From the IMG/VR virus record IMGVR_UViG_3300006754_000006, positions 1 to 43,879 of that record: DNA of 43,879 nucleotides; one strand, 5' to 3'. The stretch's first letter is position 1, and every line of letters starts with the position of its first letter. Of the stretch, positions 1,812 to 40,644 are shown piece by piece. Below the pieces are notes generated by a model. That model was not told the DNA's origin. It did no database searches and saw only the letters and a list, made by a program, of their open reading frames with translations. This stretch comes from a virus. The position numbers and the translations under genes are program-made.

Positions 1812-2231
1812 ACCGTGAAGGACGAGTGCTGCACTGGTTTCAAGCTCCACTGTGGCACCGCCCTTACCAAGGCAGGTAGGGCAGATGCCTTCACCGTCCC
1901 AAATGGCACCGCTGGCATCCTTGAGTTTGCCCAGTGTCTGAAGCAAGAGCCGGTGATCCGCAGTCTTACCTTGAGCGGCACCCTTGGCAAGAATACGCAG
2001 GCTCTCGTCAGCATCATCCCAGTCCTGCCCAGTGAGAGCTTCAAGCAGGCGGCGAGTAGACGCAGTGACGTCTTCACGAGCAACCTTAGACTGATCTGCC
2101 ATTCGATGAGCTTCGCCTTCGGGCATGTCTCGACCCAGGATTTTACCGTCAACCTGCGACCGATAGACCCCGGAATTGGGGTAGAACCAAGCGAGAGTGT
2201 CTTTGTAGGTGGTTTCAACACGATTTGTCAT
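1767..2231 (-). CDS. Lone leftward early gene with C-terminal CxxC, possibly leaderless
   Basis: A 154-residue product from the only minus-strand gene in the rightward early arm. The middle is helical and charged, and a CPTCLGKGG zinc-knuckle-like motif sits near residue 117 (only one Cys pair is visible). No family recognised. There is no Shine-Dalgarno sequence: an extended -10 (TGGTACACT on the minus strand, 2240-2248) ends nine bases before the ATG, so the transcript would start at or very near the start codon. The exact 14-bp inverted repeat at 2225-2238 covers the start codon. An autoregulated regulator is a reasonable guess. Confidence 0.6.
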   Translation of the reverse strand: MTNRVETTYKDTLAWFYPNSGVYRSQVDGKILGRDMPEGEAHRMADQSKVAREDVTASTRRLLEALTGQDWDDADESLRILAKGAAQGKTADHRLLLQTLGKLKDASGAIWDGEGICPTCLGKGGATVELETSAALVLHGLLGGIVEDVSDEPV

Positions 2232-2238
2232 GTGACAA
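2225..2238. promoter_or_regulatory. Operator-like inverted repeat TTGTCA-TG-TGACAA
   Basis: A perfect 6-bp inverted repeat with a 2-bp spacer. It covers the start codon of the minus-strand gene and touches its promoter. The same 14 bases occur at 20174 and (as the reverse complement) at 43444, with near-matches elsewhere. A bound protein here would block the leftward gene. Confidence 0.55.
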
Positions 2239-2239
2239 G

Positions 2240-2262
2240 TGTACCACGGAGAAGGACGAACG
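2240..2262 (-). promoter_or_regulatory. Promoter of the leftward early gene (extended -10)
   Basis: Read on the minus strand: TGGTACACT, an extended -10, with GTGACG 17 bases upstream as a weak -35. It would give a transcript beginning at or beside the ATG at 2231. Confidence 0.45.
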
Positions 2263-3993: not shown

Positions 3994-4022
3994 TAGGCTA
4001 TCCCCGAATGGAGAAGATAGAC

Positions 4023-4688
4023 ATGGCAGAAAAAGAACCAACACCCGCCCCAACAGAAGCGCCGAAAAAGTCGCCAGCCCCGGAACAGCCAACCGCGGAG
4101 GATCTTGCAGGATCGATCGCGGGGTTCGGAGGGGCGTTCAAGGAAATCTCTTTGAACGTTAGCAAAACAGAGAGCACGAAGGTCGACGGCAAATTCATGA
4201 GCGTCGGGATCAACGCCGGAAGCGTGCTTGCTGTGGTCGAAGACTCCGATACGGACATGCTGGCAGATCTGCAACTTGCGTGGCTAGAGGCTCGCGTCAA
4301 GATCGCGCTAGAACGTGGCGTCGCAGAACTGCGCGAACTGGAAGCATCGAAACCTGCTCCTGTTGCGGTACCGGTCGGGGCACCTGCTCCAGCAGGAGCA
4401 CCAGCACAGGCACCGCAGGGCGCAGTGTCCGGCAAGCAGGCGTTCGACGTGGACGGAACCTGGGTCATGACCCCGGCCCGGACTACCGGCGGCGAGCCTG
4501 TGATGAATTTCAAATGGGGCCGGTTTGTGAAGTACGGAATTCCTTGCTACAAAGAGGTAGCAAACGCTATCTTGCCCGAAGGATGGGAGTCATGGCCCAT
4601 CAAAGATTACGCCGTAGAAGGATTTTCAACTGTCTTTGCACAGATGAAGGCCGATGGAAATCCGGCGAAAATTACCGGGGTCGAATAG
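4023..4688 (+). CDS. Unknown early protein with Pro/Ala-rich linkers
   Basis: The 221-residue product has a Pro/Ala/Glu-rich N-terminus (about 1-25), a first domain at about 30-105 (FKEISLNVSKTES... VLAVVED, then a long helix), a second Ala/Pro linker at about 107-135, and a C-terminal domain (DGTWVMTPAR, FKWGRFVKYGIPCYKEVANAILPEGWESWP). No family recognised; two domains joined by flexible linkers would fit a DNA-binding or scaffold role, but that is a guess. The ATG at 4023 is preferred over 4008 because GGAGA sits nine bases before it. It is the first gene after a strong promoter, so it is probably abundant. Confidence 0.7.
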   Translation: MAEKEPTPAPTEAPKKSPAPEQPTAEDLAGSIAGFGGAFKEISLNVSKTESTKVDGKFMSVGINAGSVLAVVEDSDTDMLADLQLAWLEARVKIALERGVAELRELEASKPAPVAVPVGAPAPAGAPAQAPQGAVSGKQAFDVDGTWVMTPARTTGGEPVMNFKWGRFVKYGIPCYKEVANAILPEGWESWPIKDYAVEGFSTVFAQMKADGNPAKITGVE

Positions 4689-4694
4689 CCTCCG

Positions 4695-4703
4695 TGGTAC
4701 AAT
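4695..4703 (+). promoter_or_regulatory. Extended -10 promoter for the replication leader
   Basis: TGG-TACAAT, an extended -10 with no good -35. The same TGGTACAAT occurs on the minus strand before the scaffold/capsid genes (22968-22976). Initiation near 4710 would make a leader of about 100 bases that folds into the attenuator-like structure before the ATG at 4812. Confidence 0.5.
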
Positions 4704-4742
4704 AATAAAGGACGCCCTGCCTGGAAACAGGACGCCCGGAAT

Positions 4743-4811
4743 AGCGAGGGGTAGCTCGCCATCAACACGAGTATACCACATACCCCTCGCTTCCACAGGA
4801 GGGGTTTTTCT
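4743..4811 (+). promoter_or_regulatory. Attenuator-like leader: antiterminator versus terminator
   Basis: Two exclusive hairpins share one arm. (a) AGCGAGGGGTA (4743-4753) pairs with TACCCCTCGCT (4781-4791), 11 perfect base pairs, with a small inner CTCG/CGAG stem. (b) ACCCCTC (4782-4788) pairs with GAGGGGT (4799-4805), seven base pairs followed by a T run (4805-4809), an intrinsic terminator. Forming (a) removes the 5' arm of (b). The 3' arm of (b) also holds the Shine-Dalgarno AGGAGG for the ATG at 4812, so (b) would block both transcription and translation. The trigger may be an opposing RNA from 4763. Confidence 0.65.
4770..4778 (-). promoter_or_regulatory. Candidate antisense promoter inside the leader
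   Basis: On the minus strand the sequence reads TGGTATACT, an extended -10, in the loop of the antiterminator hairpin. The 11-mer TGTGGTATACT is repeated exactly before the minus-strand gene at 40644, where it is placed as a promoter. Transcription would run leftward from about 4763 across 4743-4753 and produce an RNA complementary to the antiterminator's 5' arm. The -35 region is poor. Confidence 0.45.
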
Positions 4812-5000
4812 ATGACCAACGACCAGAATGTGTCGCAGATAGAGAGAGCATACGGCATAAACGCCGTATTGGACATCATGGAGAGCGACACGAGACAGCA
4901 CGGAAGGCAATACAGCAACAAGAGATCGCACGGTGAGTGGTTCGCACTGACACCAGAAGACATCGCAGAGATTTGCTCAATTCCTGGAGAAAGCCAATAA
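4812..5000 (+). CDS. Small protein at the head of the replication operon
   Basis: Sixty-two residues. The C-terminal HGEWFALTPEDIAEI recalls the end of T5orf172/GIY-YIG-type domains, but the nuclease core is absent, so the resemblance may be superficial. Its expression sits directly behind the terminator/Shine-Dalgarno hairpin. Its stop overlaps the ATG of the initiator-like gene at 5000 (TAATG), so the leader would control both. Function unknown. Confidence 0.6.
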   Translation: MTNDQNVSQIERAYGINAVLDIMESDTRQHGRQYSNKRSHGEWFALTPEDIAEICSIPGESQ

Positions 5001-5788
5001 TGACAGCAACCATCGTGGTCAAAAACTTCGTCCAAGTACCGTTCGATCTCTCAAAGAAACACGGAGCGATCCCCGCTCACGTGGCAGCCATTGTGTACTA
5101 CTACGCATCAATGAGCGATGGCGTTTGCAGGGCAGCACAGAGTCTCATGGCAAAAGAAACTGGAATGAGCAGGAAAACCATAAACACTCACCTGGGCGCC
5201 CTGTGCAAGAAGGGTGTAATCGAAAAGGTTTACAAGGGAGGCCCCAGCCGGCCCTGCCACTACAAGCCCCTCTTTGAATTCAAGCACAAAATCACCGCCG
5301 AAATGAGCACCGAGTACAAACCTGTCCCGAACGCACAGACCCCTTTGGGAACAGACGACACAGAGAAAAGCGCAACCCCCGATTCGTCTGTGCAAGATGT
5401 GCCCAAGAGTATAGTACAAGCACCTAGTACAGAACCAGTACAGAACATAAGTACTTCACCGGCAGAGCCGGATGTGCCGAAAGAACAATATGTGGACACT
5501 CATCAAGAGATGATTACAGCGATTTGCACTGCCTGTGGCTACGACCCGCGACTGATGGCAGGTCGCGTTGCCAAGCCCGCCAGTGAGCTACGCAAGTCCG
5601 GCTACACAGCCAAGCAGGTTCTCGACGGCTTCTACGCCGATGGTGGCTTTTGGAAAACAGTGTGCCACTGGGGAAGACAGGGCCAACTACCCAGGCCCGC
5701 TCAAATCAAAGAGCTTATCCAGCAAGCTGTGTCACATGACAAACCACTGTCCGCCGCCGACGAACTAGAGCGAAGGAGATCAGGATGA
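5000..5788 (+). CDS. Winged-helix replication-initiator-like protein
   Basis: A 262-residue protein. Residues about 25-85 form a helix-turn-helix with wing (HVAAIVYYYASMSD, SLMAKETGMSRKTINTHLGALCKKGVIEKV), as in phage replisome organisers of the lambda O / DnaD type. A polar linker follows at about 90-170. The C-terminal domain (about 170-262: AICTACGYDPR, YTAKQVLDGFYADGGFW) could contact the helicase loader. It lies upstream of the DnaC-like ATPase, the usual initiator-then-loader pair, and probably opens the phage origin. The ATG at 5000 is coupled to the upstream stop. The 3' end contains a 13-of-14 match to the TTGTCA-2-TGACAA element. Confidence 0.7.
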   Translation: MTATIVVKNFVQVPFDLSKKHGAIPAHVAAIVYYYASMSDGVCRAAQSLMAKETGMSRKTINTHLGALCKKGVIEKVYKGGPSRPCHYKPLFEFKHKITAEMSTEYKPVPNAQTPLGTDDTEKSATPDSSVQDVPKSIVQAPSTEPVQNISTSPAEPDVPKEQYVDTHQEMITAICTACGYDPRLMAGRVAKPASELRKSGYTAKQVLDGFYADGGFWKTVCHWGRQGQLPRPAQIKELIQQAVSHDKPLSAADELERRRSG

Positions 5789-5961
5789 CTACGAAGTTCA
5801 CAATCAAGTGTCCGTCCTGCAGCACCGAGCACGAGTGTCACGTCAATGGAAAAATGAGCGTGGGCTCGCGAGGTGAAATCTGGCGCGACAAAGAGAGCGG
5901 CGGGTGCGGCAGAAGCATCAAGTTCTTAGTGGTGCCAAATAGTTCAGATACGCAACACTGA
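5785..5961 (+). CDS. Small zinc-ribbon protein between initiator and loader
   Basis: Fifty-eight residues with KCPSC at residues 8-12 and further cysteines at 18 and 38 (GGCGRS), a probable zinc ribbon. The ATG overlaps the initiator stop (ATGA). It may assist replication or regulation; nothing more can be read. Confidence 0.6.
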   Translation: MTTKFTIKCPSCSTEHECHVNGKMSVGSRGEIWRDKESGGCGRSIKFLVVPNSSDTQH

Positions 5962-5993
5962 GTAACTTTACTCCGGATTTTGAAAGGACACCC

Positions 5994-6911
5994 ATGACCA
6001 GCACCGACCCAAGATACGTAACGATCTGGCCCGAAACCTGGCTCCCGTTCACGGAGCCGAAGCACCCGGCCCTGATCCGCAAAAACGACCGGTTCCCGAG
6101 CATGAAGTCCGACTACCTGAACATCAACGGCGAAGCCTGTGGCAACTGCAACGGAGCCGGCGACATTTCGTCCATCGTCGCTGATCCCGGCAACTGGGAG
6201 AAGTCGCTGCAGTGGCACCCATGGACCAATACTGAAGGACATGACGAAGGCAGGCTCATAGAGGGCAGCGTCGAGCAAGCCCCGTGCCCCGTGTGCCGCG
6301 GCGGAGCGTTGCTGGAGTTCCTGTTACTGCACTCCGGTATCAGGGGCAAAGTTCTGGACGGCAAGCAAATGGAGACGATCCAGCTTGGCGTTCCGCTCGA
6401 CGGACAAGTCACAGCGACAGACGCAGCCAAGTCCGCGTGCGCAGAACGTCCGCTCCGCTCGTGGCTGTTCCTGTACGGAGCGAACGGCAGCGGGAAGTCG
6501 CACATTCTCATCGGCATGGTGAACAGCGCACGGATGCACACCAAGGTCGAGTACCTTACGACCACGGCCATGCTTGGCAAGATCCAGGCGACGTACGGCA
6601 ACGACGCTCGAACCGACCAAGTAATCAAGCACTATTCCGAGATCCCCGTGCTGGCACTGGACGAAATGGGCGCAGCCAGGTGGACGGAGTGGGCAGGGGA
6701 ACAACTCTCAAACATCATCGGCGAGCGGTACACCAACGACCTGCCGACGTGGATCGCATCGGACGTTGACCCACTGACACTGGAGAAACAGGGACCAGCA
6801 GCGAAGCGCATCCTGTCCCGGTGCTCACGCGACCTGCCCAACGGAATGACTGGGTGGCAGGAAGTAACGGGCAAGGATCTGCGACCGAGACTGCAGCAGG
6901 CACTGCGATGA
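5994..6911 (+). CDS. dnaC-like: DnaC/IstB-type helicase loader (AAA+ ATPase)
   Basis: A 305-residue ATPase with Walker A GANGSGKS (162-169), Walker B VLALDEMG (219-226) and an R-x-x-S-R-C-S-R-D segment near the end, like the arginine finger of helicase loaders. Before the ATPase there is a zinc-knuckle pair, CGNC (49-52) and CPVC (98-101), as in DnaC/primosomal proteins with cysteine-rich N-termini. It should load the host replicative helicase at the phage origin with the upstream initiator. No helicase or polymerase gene is visible, so the phage relies on the host replisome. GAAAGGA precedes the ATG at 5994 by a few bases. Confidence 0.85.
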   Translation: MTSTDPRYVTIWPETWLPFTEPKHPALIRKNDRFPSMKSDYLNINGEACGNCNGAGDISSIVADPGNWEKSLQWHPWTNTEGHDEGRLIEGSVEQAPCPVCRGGALLEFLLLHSGIRGKVLDGKQMETIQLGVPLDGQVTATDAAKSACAERPLRSWLFLYGANGSGKSHILIGMVNSARMHTKVEYLTTTAMLGKIQATYGNDARTDQVIKHYSEIPVLALDEMGAARWTEWAGEQLSNIIGERYTNDLPTWIASDVDPLTLEKQGPAAKRILSRCSRDLPNGMTGWQEVTGKDLRPRLQQALR

Positions 6912-7342
6912 TGCAGTACGGTCCCAGATACGGCAAAGGCAACGTGATGGACCCGCTCACAAAGAGCAAGAGACATGACACCATGACCATTGTCTTCTGC
7001 CCGACCGGGGACTTCAAAGCAGGGGCTGAGTTGACAGGCTTTGCCGCAACGGTTATGATGGGGTTCATTCCATCGGGGACCATAGCCACTGACGAAGACT
7101 ACGGCAAGTACAAAGTTGATGGCTACAAACTGCTGCCGCTCGACCAGCCAGTCCTCAAGCCCAGGTCGGGGCGCGGAACGAGGCAAGGGAAACTCGCAGC
7201 AGAAGACGTAGTCATCATCAAGAGAATACTCAGGAACAAAAGTTACCTTGGTATCAAGAGAGACTTAGCAAAAAGGTTCCGTGTCTCAAGACAAGCGATA
7301 GATGCTATTTTCTGGGGACGGACATGGAAACACATCTCATAA
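6908..7342 (+). CDS. Helix-turn-helix protein
   Basis: 144 residues. The C-terminal 50 (VVIIKRILRNKSYLGIKRDL, AKRFRVSRQAIDAIFWGRTW) look like the helix-turn-helix found at the ends of phage HNH/AP2-type endonucleases, with the typical VS..aI..I..g..W pattern. The N-terminal part (about 1-85) has no recognised fold and no HNH residues. It is probably a DNA-binding protein. The start overlaps the loader stop (ATGATG at 6908). A near-consensus promoter lies within it. Confidence 0.6.
   Translation: MMQYGPRYGKGNVMDPLTKSKRHDTMTIVFCPTGDFKAGAELTGFAATVMMGFIPSGTIATDEDYGKYKVDGYKLLPLDQPVLKPRSGRGTRQGKLAAEDVVIIKRILRNKSYLGIKRDLAKRFRVSRQAIDAIFWGRTWKHIS
7031..7059 (+). promoter_or_regulatory. Near-consensus sigma-70 promoter inside the HTH gene
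   Basis: TTGACA (7031-7036), 17 bases, TATGAT (7054-7059): perfect -35, five-of-six -10. It would drive the genes from 7352 onward, including the GroES-like gene, independently of the replication leader. It lies in coding sequence, so expression data would be needed. Confidence 0.6.
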
Positions 7343-7351
7343 GGAGCGGGT

Positions 7352-7618
7352 ATGATCGAACGCGCTGCATGCAGAGCATGCGGACACATGATGTGGGACC
7401 GGTGCCTGATCTGCCGCACGGACGCGACGTGCCTGTCCTCGCCCGTGTTCGGATACCGGCAGAGCATGTTCTCAATCAGCGACTTCGGCATGTCCCTGCA
7501 AATGGGCTTGTGGCCGGAAGGGTCTACGTGGCAGATACTGCGGCCCCGGACAGGCGACGAGATCGAGTACATCGTAGATGGTGCGGAGCTTCGCATCCAA
7601 ACAATCAGGAGAATTTGA
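7352..7618 (+). CDS. Cysteine-rich protein, unknown function
   Basis: Eighty-eight residues starting with a compact CRAC...CLIC zinc-knuckle (residues 7-21), followed by a hydrophobic and aromatic stretch and TWQILRPRTGDEIEYIVDG. AAGGAG precedes the ATG. Its stop overlaps the next ATG (TGATG). No family recognised. Confidence 0.6.
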   Translation: MIERAACRACGHMMWDRCLICRTDATCLSSPVFGYRQSMFSISDFGMSLQMGLWPEGSTWQILRPRTGDEIEYIVDGAELRIQTIRRI

Positions 7619-8870: not shown

Positions 8871-9208
8871 TGGACATCATCCAAGTTGTATCAGATCTGA
8901 AGGACGCCCGCATCAACGAGCTGGAAGCAATCGGAGTACTGGCCGATGGCGAGGCAGACCTGAAGCGCGAAGAAGCCAGTGCCCTGTACCACGGACGCGA
9001 GGATGGAACTATCATCGGCAAGACCGTGAGTGACCGCGCCGAATCCGGCATCATCTTCCTCGCCACGCACCCGGGATTCCAAGGGACACTGTCCGGCGTC
9101 AAGTTGCTGCGGCACACCACCGCCGAAGCTCGTATCGAGCGCCAGTACCAAGAGGATCTGCTGTCCGCTATGAAGGCAGTGCTGGCCCCCATGAGCAGTG
9201 GCGCGTAG
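8870..9208 (+). CDS. Unknown helical protein
   Basis: 112 residues, with charged helices at both ends (LKDARINELEAIGVLADGE, ARIERQYQEDLLSAM). No motif recognised. Start and stop overlap neighbours by one base (TAATG; TAGTG). Confidence 0.6.
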   Translation: MDIIQVVSDLKDARINELEAIGVLADGEADLKREEASALYHGREDGTIIGKTVSDRAESGIIFLATHPGFQGTLSGVKLLRHTTAEARIERQYQEDLLSAMKAVLAPMSSGA

Positions 9209-9795
9209 TGGAGAAACTAACACTGGACAAGATCATCCCGGTCGAAGTCCAGCACCGGCTCGGAGCGTCCGCACTAAAGATCAGTGACGGATGCTTCGAG
9301 ATCGGCGACCTTACTGCAGAGCTTGCAGATGAGTGGACCACGCTGGTAGACGGACGTCGCGAGTGGATCATCCCGACAGATGACTACTACTCTGCGATCG
9401 CAACAATCATCGGTAGGTCAGCAGCCACGGCCAGAACGTACGAGAGCGTGGCCCGCGGCGTACCAAAGGAAACGAGGGACGCATGCCCCGAACCGTATAC
9501 GTTCGGACACCACAAGGCGTTGCTACCGAAGAGTAAAGGCAATCACGATGCCCATGTGCGTCTTGCCGAAGACTTCGCGGCAACAGCAGACGAGTTCGGA
9601 GGCACAATCGGGTCAGTCGACGCTTTGAGGGTATGGCTAGACAAGGACAGCCCGGTGCCGAGTTTCTGGCGCAGGGTCAAGAAGCTGGTTGAGATCGGTA
9701 AAGAGCTGGTAGAAACAGAGGAAGTTCCTGATACAATCAAGGCCGGTATCCGTGCGCTACTGGTGGTGACTGAGCCCCTTCTCCCCAAGGAGTAG
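9208..9795 (+). CDS. Unknown protein with HTH-like segment, GTG start
   Basis: A 195-residue product starting with GTG that overlaps the previous stop. The segment YYSAIATIIGRSAATARTYESVARGVPKE looks like a helix-turn-helix of the ParB/KorB kind, followed by YTFGHHKALLP, which recalls the 'susceptible to the start' part of such proteins. The C-terminus is helical. A DNA-binding role is plausible, unproven. Confidence 0.55.
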   Translation: MEKLTLDKIIPVEVQHRLGASALKISDGCFEIGDLTAELADEWTTLVDGRREWIIPTDDYYSAIATIIGRSAATARTYESVARGVPKETRDACPEPYTFGHHKALLPKSKGNHDAHVRLAEDFAATADEFGGTIGSVDALRVWLDKDSPVPSFWRRVKKLVEIGKELVETEEVPDTIKAGIRALLVVTEPLLPKE

Positions 9796-33477: not shown

Positions 33478-33498
33478 CGTACGGGTCTACGCCAAAGG

Positions 33499-33570
33499 CG
33501 CAGCGAGCACGATTCGAACGTGCATCTCGCGGATTTGGAGGCCGGAATCGTCCCATTGGACCACCGCTGC
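33499..33570 (-). tRNA. tRNA, probable anticodon CCA (Trp), imperfect anticodon stem
   Basis: On the minus strand: acceptor stem GCAGCGG/TCGCTGC (one G-U pair), T arm GCACG-TTCGAAT-CGTGC perfect, five-base variable loop, and anticodon loop CTCCAAA (anticodon CCA). The D arm is short (GTC/GAC possible). The anticodon stem has two mismatches (27-43 C/C and 31-39 C/T), so the gene may be degenerate or misfolded here. No CCA is encoded at the 3' end. It lies between the methylase island and the terminator before terL. Confidence 0.6.
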
Positions 33571-39988: not shown

Positions 39989-40644
39989 GCGGCGAAGCGA
40001 GGCGCAGGACGACCGTACTTGCGCATGTGGTACTTGTCAGCACGAGCAAGTTTACACTTGTCGCACCGGCAGCCCGTTTTGGAGTAGCACTGGAGTGTTC
40101 CGTGTGTATACTTCTTTTTGGGCCGCGGCTCCGTTGTCCCGTACCTCCCGAGACGATACGCCTCAGTTCGCGCCACCTTGCACTCGTCACACCTGCAGCC
40201 GTTGTGGTAACAAGCCGCTGTTCCGTGTGTGTCCTTCTTGAACGGGGGCTTACCTGCAGGCCCATACACCTTCAACTCACGCGCCAGTACACAAGGCTCG
40301 CACCTGCATCCCCTCCTGTACTTCGCATGCGTACCGCACGGAGACTTAGCCCTTCCCCTCGCAGCTGCCGAATTGCACTCCATGTGACTGTACGCGATGT
40401 TGTCCAGGTCAAAGTACAGGCCAGCAGGATCGTCACTGTGCAGCCACGGTACCTTGTGTTCGATACTGAACTCTTCGAGCGTGTCGATCCGCTCTCCGCA
40501 CTGGAAGCACAGGTCCAGCTCCAGTCTCTGCGCTTGGTCGTACAGAAGTCGCCGCATCAACCTGCGACGTGCCGTGACCCTGTTCTGTCCTAGCTGCGCG
40601 TTCATCATTTCGTGCCTCTTACGGCTATACCCTTTGGTTGCCAT
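39985..40644 (-). CDS. HNH protein with three GCRC zinc repeats
   Basis: 219 residues. The N-terminal half is an HNH nuclease: C-x2-C at 46-49 (CFQCG), E-H at 62-63, N82, H87 and C-N at 90-91. The C-terminal half holds three repeats of the form (H/C)GT-x3-Y-x2-GCRC-x2-C-x2-AR at about 103-128, 140-169 and 181-211, each with three cysteines and a His for zinc and DNA contact. Such repeats occur in actinobacterial phage proteins. It could be a homing endonuclease or a regulator. GGAGGAG precedes the ATG at 40644. Confidence 0.75.
   Translation of the reverse strand: MATKGYSRKRHEMMNAQLGQNRVTARRRLMRRLLYDQAQRLELDLCFQCGERIDTLEEFSIEHKVPWLHSDDPAGLYFDLDNIAYSHMECNSAAARGRAKSPCGTHAKYRRGCRCEPCVLARELKVYGPAGKPPFKKDTHGTAACYHNGCRCDECKVARTEAYRLGRYGTTEPRPKKKYTHGTLQCYSKTGCRCDKCKLARADKYHMRKYGRPAPRFAA

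Follow-up and report, generated by a model that had tools for sequence, protein, structure and literature searches.

Antisense attenuation is a classical means of setting plasmid copy number. Whether a tailed phage could control its replication genes in a similar way is the question raised by a leader of about 115 bp in IMG/VR virus record IMGVR_UViG_3300006754_000006, which comes from an uncultured virus and may be incomplete. The window analyzed here is the whole record, 43,879 bases. A preliminary description of this DNA had proposed that an antisense RNA, made from an opposing promoter, decides between an antiterminator and a terminator ahead of the replication genes.

Gene neighborhood of the leader

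The record encodes an SU10-type capsid protein and a distant terminase. Its genes are mostly rightward to the left of ~11.6 kb, and the structural genes are leftward. The leader lies between a rightward gene that ends at 4688 and a rightward replication block (Table 1). The preliminary description had placed an initiator and a helicase loader downstream, and the O-like and DnaC-like matches agree with this, with a 62-aa ORF sitting between the leader and the initiator. The stop codon of this ORF overlaps the initiator start (TAATG), through which the two could possibly be translationally coupled, and the initiator gene also has its own GGAG. The similarity of the 62-aa ORF (4812-5000) is to the C-terminal tail of GIY-YIG nuclease-like phage proteins; it has no nuclease domain. 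The 4000-7400 region had no DNA-level relative among 50,697 phage records.

Within the initiator gene, AGTAC occurs four times with 11-13-nt spacing (5413-5453), and the record has just two such clusters of a 5-base word. This cluster is a candidate for origin iterons, in a lambda-like position. A tRNA-Trp (CCA) gene is present at 33497-33570 (minus strand), beside the terminase, and several DNA methyltransferase genes are spread over both sides of the record. Searches for an integrase, ParA, and HTH_3 gave no match in the record, which may be incomplete, and so lend no support to a temperate or phage-plasmid lifestyle.

Table 1. Features of the leader and of the replication block that follows it
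Feature	Position	Strand	Details
Sense extended -10, TGGTACAAT	4695-4703	+	predicted start ~4710
Antisense terminator	4701-4737	-	12-bp hairpin 4737-4710, then TTTATTATT; -18.8 kcal/mol
Predicted antisense RNA	4702-4764	-	~60 nt, two hairpins; ends predicted from promoter and terminator
Sense leader RNA	4710-4811	+	ahead of the 4812 ORF; ends predicted by sequence
Antiterminator, 11 bp	arms 4743-4753 and 4781-4791	+	-23.7 kcal/mol including inner hairpin; pairing probability ~1 in free leader
Early sense hairpin, GCGAG-GGGUAG-CUCGC	4744-4759	+	MFE of nascent transcript ending at 4768
Antisense extended -10, TGGTATACT	4778-4770	-	inside antiterminator loop; predicted start ~4763
Intrinsic terminator	4782-4811	+	7-bp stem 4782-4788/4799-4805, 10-nt loop, then TTTTCT; -12.1 kcal/mol
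62-aa ORF	4812-5000	+	first gene after leader; phrog_4284, E=8e-8; gene-like codon use
Replication initiator, O-like, winged helix	5000-5788	+	phrog_678, E=1.7e-9; HTH_24, E=2.6e-5
58-aa ORF	5785-5961	+	between initiator and loader
DnaC-like helicase loader (AAA+)	5994-6911	+	phrog_50, E=5.2e-24; IstB and DnaA ATPase domains

An antiterminator and a terminator with a common arm

The two alternative hairpins that had been read from the sequence are perfect inverted repeats (11/11 and 7/7 pairs) and share one arm. As also described earlier, the 3′ arm of the terminator contains the AGGAGG (Shine-Dalgarno) of the ATG at 4812. When every hairpin followed by a T-rich tail was ranked on both strands of the whole record, the sense terminator (4782-4805, -12.1 kcal/mol) was the strongest on the plus strand. 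The short stem (7 bp) and the modest U-run of this terminator count against the attenuation reading.

Both strands were also scanned for a layout consisting of a word, its complement, and the word again within 15 nt, followed by a T-run. At word length 7, the leader switch was the single instance in the window on either strand. Dinucleotide shuffles contained at least one such layout in 1 of 150 cases at word length 7 and in 8 of 150 at length 6, figures that are somewhat weakened by the fact that the scan criteria were set after the feature was known. The same scan of the other natural phage sequences compared gave only matches with weak tails. Folding of the 118-nt leader stretch gave z = -3.7 for either strand.

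Two other kinds of leader were considered. Leader-peptide attenuation of the trp type is excluded if transcription starts at 4710, because there is no ATG, GTG, or TTG in 4710-4811. A riboswitch or known leader family was likewise rejected: Rfam gave no match at gathering thresholds, and none up to E=10 in 4600-4900.

Predicted opposing promoters and a predicted antisense RNA

The extended -10 reported on the opposite strand at 4770-4778 is present as TGGTATACT, and a related site on the plus strand precedes the leader. A recognizable -35 is absent at both of these predicted promoters, a point against the attenuation reading. The motif TGGTA[CT]A[AC]T, which was defined from the two leader sites alone, was found at three sites outside the leader, located 7, 16, or 20 nt before same-strand gene starts; this gene-proximal placement (3/3) compares with 2.7% of positions expected. 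Since all three extra copies closely precede same-strand genes, TGGTA[CT]A[AC]T is probably a promoter class of the phage itself. Only one of the five motif sites, 4778(-), has no gene behind it, and it is most simply explained as the promoter of a ~60-nt noncoding RNA. The 9-mer of this site recurs unchanged upstream of the leftward gene starting at 40644. A leaderless mRNA is suggested for the leftward gene 1767-2231, whose ATG comes 7 nt after the end of the motif TGGTACACT (2231-2246, minus strand).

On the minus strand, the top terminator-like hairpin of the record is 4737-4710. It would stop the predicted antisense RNA at ~60 nt, leaving a gap of ~12 nt to the upstream gene, whose stop is at 4688. 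That the best terminator-like hairpin of each strand sits in one leader counts in favor of the attenuation reading. As positioned, the opposing promoter motif and its own terminator would yield an RNA that covers the 5′ arm of the antiterminator and not the terminator. This predicted RNA is fully complementary to the sense 5′ leader and folds into two stem-loops (-31.3 kcal/mol). The loop of its hairpin GCGAG-CUACCC-CUCGC is fully complementary to the sense loop GGGUAG, and the sense hairpin 4744-4759 is a candidate for the first contact (kissing loop) with CUACCC. Another leftward terminator-like hairpin, at 5060-5083 (minus strand, -12.3 kcal/mol), is the second-strongest in the record and lies at the 5′ end of the initiator gene; it could be the end of a further leftward RNA.

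Every sequence-level part of the control logic that had been proposed was thus found in the leader. Within ~115 bp the switch looks complete, with a predicted promoter and a terminator in each direction and two alternative folds.

Folding of the leader with and without a blocked 5′ end

The folds reported here are equilibrium calculations and do not describe kinetics. In the free full leader, the antiterminator had P~1 and the terminator P~0, and blocking 4710-4763 changed these values to 0 and ~1, respectively. This is the switch from antiterminator to terminator that the preliminary description had predicted for a masked 5′ leader. Stepwise blocking from the 5′ end produced the flip only on entering the 5′ arm of the antiterminator, at 4744-4746, and the pairing probability of the terminator was ~1 with at least 4710-4746 blocked. 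When the antisense RNA and the sense leader were folded jointly, they gave a continuous duplex with the terminator hairpin intact. The Shine-Dalgarno region also pairs with the 5′ leader in the free fold, which counts against the attenuation reading; because of this pairing, the "on" state may be less open to translation than a pure attenuation model would want.

Search for related leaders

IMG/VR was queried with the initiator, the 62-aa protein, the loader, the terminase, the protein at 9208-9792, and a 17-base leader pattern. The initiator was further searched against species genomes, and DNA or protein against phages and plasmids. These searches recovered terminase relatives only, and neither the IMG/VR scans (initiator, 62-aa protein, loader, and terminase) nor the species-genome scan (initiator) revealed a locus with the same replication module. 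The 62-aa query gave five loci, with matches over short stretches (19-41 residues), and the matches to the 17-base pattern were all in unrelated sequence. In none of these collections (IMG/VR, phages, plasmids, and genomes) was a homologous leader detected, which counts against the attenuation reading.

G001 is the nearest phage whose replication module is comparable, with a terminase that is 42% identical and a loader that is 23% identical. Its leader (L020 5060-5226) has a long hairpin before a small ORF and an initiator, and the whole leader folds with z = -5.3. This hairpin is not followed by a U-run, the G001 leader lacks a terminator with a shared arm, and no site in it is terminator-like or sigma-70-like; because of these absences the switch is judged not conserved at this distance. 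The G001 initiator gene carries four iterons of 17-24 nt, about 24 nt apart (L020 5639-5735). The sequence TATGTGGT(G)ATAC occurs within the leader hairpins of the window (4770-4781) and of G001 (L020 ~5163-5175), on opposite strands; the local alignment score of TATGTGGT-ATAC was reached in 2 of 300 shuffles.

Proposed mechanism and alternative readings

From what was obtained directly, namely the sequence elements and how rare they are, folds that exclude one another, and the gene identities, we think it probable that the leader is a transcription attenuator of the replication operon controlled by an antisense RNA, similar to those of pT181 and pIP501. RNA polymerase would start at ~4710, and the small hairpin 4744-4759 would form first in the emerging leader. 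The 11-bp antiterminator, being stronger, would replace it and let transcription pass through the 62-aa ORF to the initiator and loader genes. The promoter within the antiterminator loop would fire leftward and produce the ~60-nt antisense RNA, ended by its own terminator. This RNA would pair with the 5′ leader, perhaps loop to loop first (GGGUAG with CUACCC), and take the antiterminator's 5′ arm, leaving its 3′ arm free to form the terminator, with a stop at ~4805-4811. The ribosome-binding site would be buried too. Since antisense RNA would be made from each genome copy, the initiator would be synthesized less as copies build up. What we infer here is that the promoters work, that the antisense RNA is made in the phage's life cycle and acts by termination, and that genome dosage feeds back on the initiator. 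The first downstream gene is the 62-aa ORF and not the initiator, which counts against the attenuation reading.

In this phage, whose record gave no match to an integrase or to ParA, countertranscript attenuation of the plasmid kind might, we tentatively suggest, sense genome dosage during infection and thereby limit or time the synthesis of the initiator. If this is true, the phage would own a copy-number control with sense and antisense promoters of one class, and tailed phages could gauge their own genome dosage by RNA. The leader would also offer a compact (~115 bp), testable example and a wider link between plasmid and phage replication control.

One structural switch fits termination and translation alike. 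Antisense RNAs control plasmids R1 and pMV158 at translation, and in the leader the pairing of 4799-4805 with 4782-4788 would bury the Shine-Dalgarno in the terminator 3′ arm and block the 62-aa ORF, and the initiator as well through coupling at the overlapping stop and start codons. Such control would need neither the T-run directly after the hairpin nor a hairpin that is the top terminator-like site of the plus strand, and the initiator has a GGAG of its own; we consider it unlikely. A shade less probable is an attenuator run by a protein or other ligand, for example by feedback from the initiator, with the opposing promoter separate or weak. Many leader attenuators are under protein or ligand control, and the antiterminator/terminator pair is self-sufficient, but the orphan promoter motif and the genome's top leftward terminator-like site, which frame the 5′ arm of the antiterminator, would be left unexplained, and Rfam returned no match.

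An opposing promoter just before an O-like initiator gene is placed as in lambda, which would suit transcription interference of the lambda pO kind, where leftward firing into the rightward promoter would regulate transcription through the origin and the RNA would matter little. This reading does not predict the shared-arm switch, which is far above chance, and it seems improbable to us. The absence of any regulation, with a constitutive terminator, a fortuitous -10, and arms that match by chance, agrees with the occurrence of the leader in one genome only, without covariation, and -10-like motifs are common in general. It is nevertheless very improbable, given that ~115 nt combine the best terminator of each strand with a shared-arm switch of perfect 11-bp and 7-bp stems and with the promoter motif in duplicate. 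The last alternative, and the one to which we give the least credence, is that a 51-aa peptide (ATG at 4763, stop at 4607) is translated from a leaderless mRNA that starts at the leftward promoter. The ATG is 7 nt past the -10, a spacing near that of the putative leaderless gene at 2231, but the strong terminator 4737-4710 would cut this message at ~60 nt. The codon score of the 51-aa ORF was -0.143, versus -0.16 (sd 0.15) for antisense frames and 0.30 (sd 0.13) for genes, and the ORF was rejected.

Comparison with known systems

In pT181, an antisense RNA that is fully complementary to the 5′ leader frees the terminator, with a presumed kissing-loop start (PMC4878617). The phage leader is like the repC/RNAI pair in that a sense leader has antiterminator-or-terminator folds and an antisense RNA, predicted here from the sequence, matches its 5′ part. 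It differs in belonging to a tailed phage, in having an O-like initiator and a DnaC-like loader instead of RepC, in the 62-aa ORF that comes first, and in the short antisense RNA predicted (~60 nt). In pIP501, the convergent RNAIII leads to premature termination of the rep mRNA, with opposing transcription (PMC4981023). The likeness to this Inc18 plasmid is an antisense promoter convergent within the leader, a predicted one in the phage; the differences are a 136-nt RNAIII, a 329-bp leader, and the repressor CopR in pIP501, compared with a phage sense leader of ~100 nt. The HTH_3 search of the possibly incomplete record gave no match for a Cop-type repressor such as those of pIP501 and pAMbeta1.

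The folds, the repeats, and the layout scan together place a mutually exclusive antiterminator and intrinsic terminator in a replication leader. The leader would work like those of pT181 and pIP501, but by sequence it falls outside those replicon families, its initiator being of the phage O-like type. The initiator matched phage O-like families and had no relative in plasmids; a pT181- or Inc18-related Rep was absent.

Partial precedents exist among phages. The replication genes of satellite phage P4 are stopped by RNA-dependent premature termination involving the CI RNA, which is made from the same strand (PMC4825925). Processing of the P4 sense leader transcript yields the CI RNA, whose pairing partners are seqA and seqC, whereas the regulator predicted here would come from the opposite strand and its own promoter and would be complementary by position. 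Lambda pO is a leftward promoter just ahead of the O gene that makes a short terminated RNA and influences replication, presumably mainly by convergence (PMC3985674). The phage locus would share with pO/OOP a leftward promoter before the initiator, predicted here at 4778(-), and a short RNA that would be terminated, here at 4737-4710. It is unlike lambda in the 62-aa ORF between the predicted promoter and the initiator, in an RNA that would cover the replication leader, and in the presence of an attenuator. OOP is antisense to cII, and the predicted phage RNA is not: it would end before the upstream gene, where there is no cII-like match. In Cluster A mycobacteriophages, a noncoding RNA is needed for prophage-origin replication (PMC7157519). 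This is similar to the phage studied here in that a phage-encoded noncoding RNA, predicted in our case, is tied to replication, but the Cluster A RNA is implicated in initiation, without a Rep protein and next to parABS, whereas the present locus has an initiator gene and the record no ParA match.

As far as the exact layout is concerned, the earlier statement that none was known in a phage replication module stands; in its wider sense it is limited by the RNA-dependent termination of P4 (PMC4825925) and by lambda pO (PMC3985674). We found no report of the exact combination in a phage in the literature, within partial open-access coverage. What appears to be new is the exact antisense-attenuator layout before a phage initiator, the mechanism itself being already known from plasmids.
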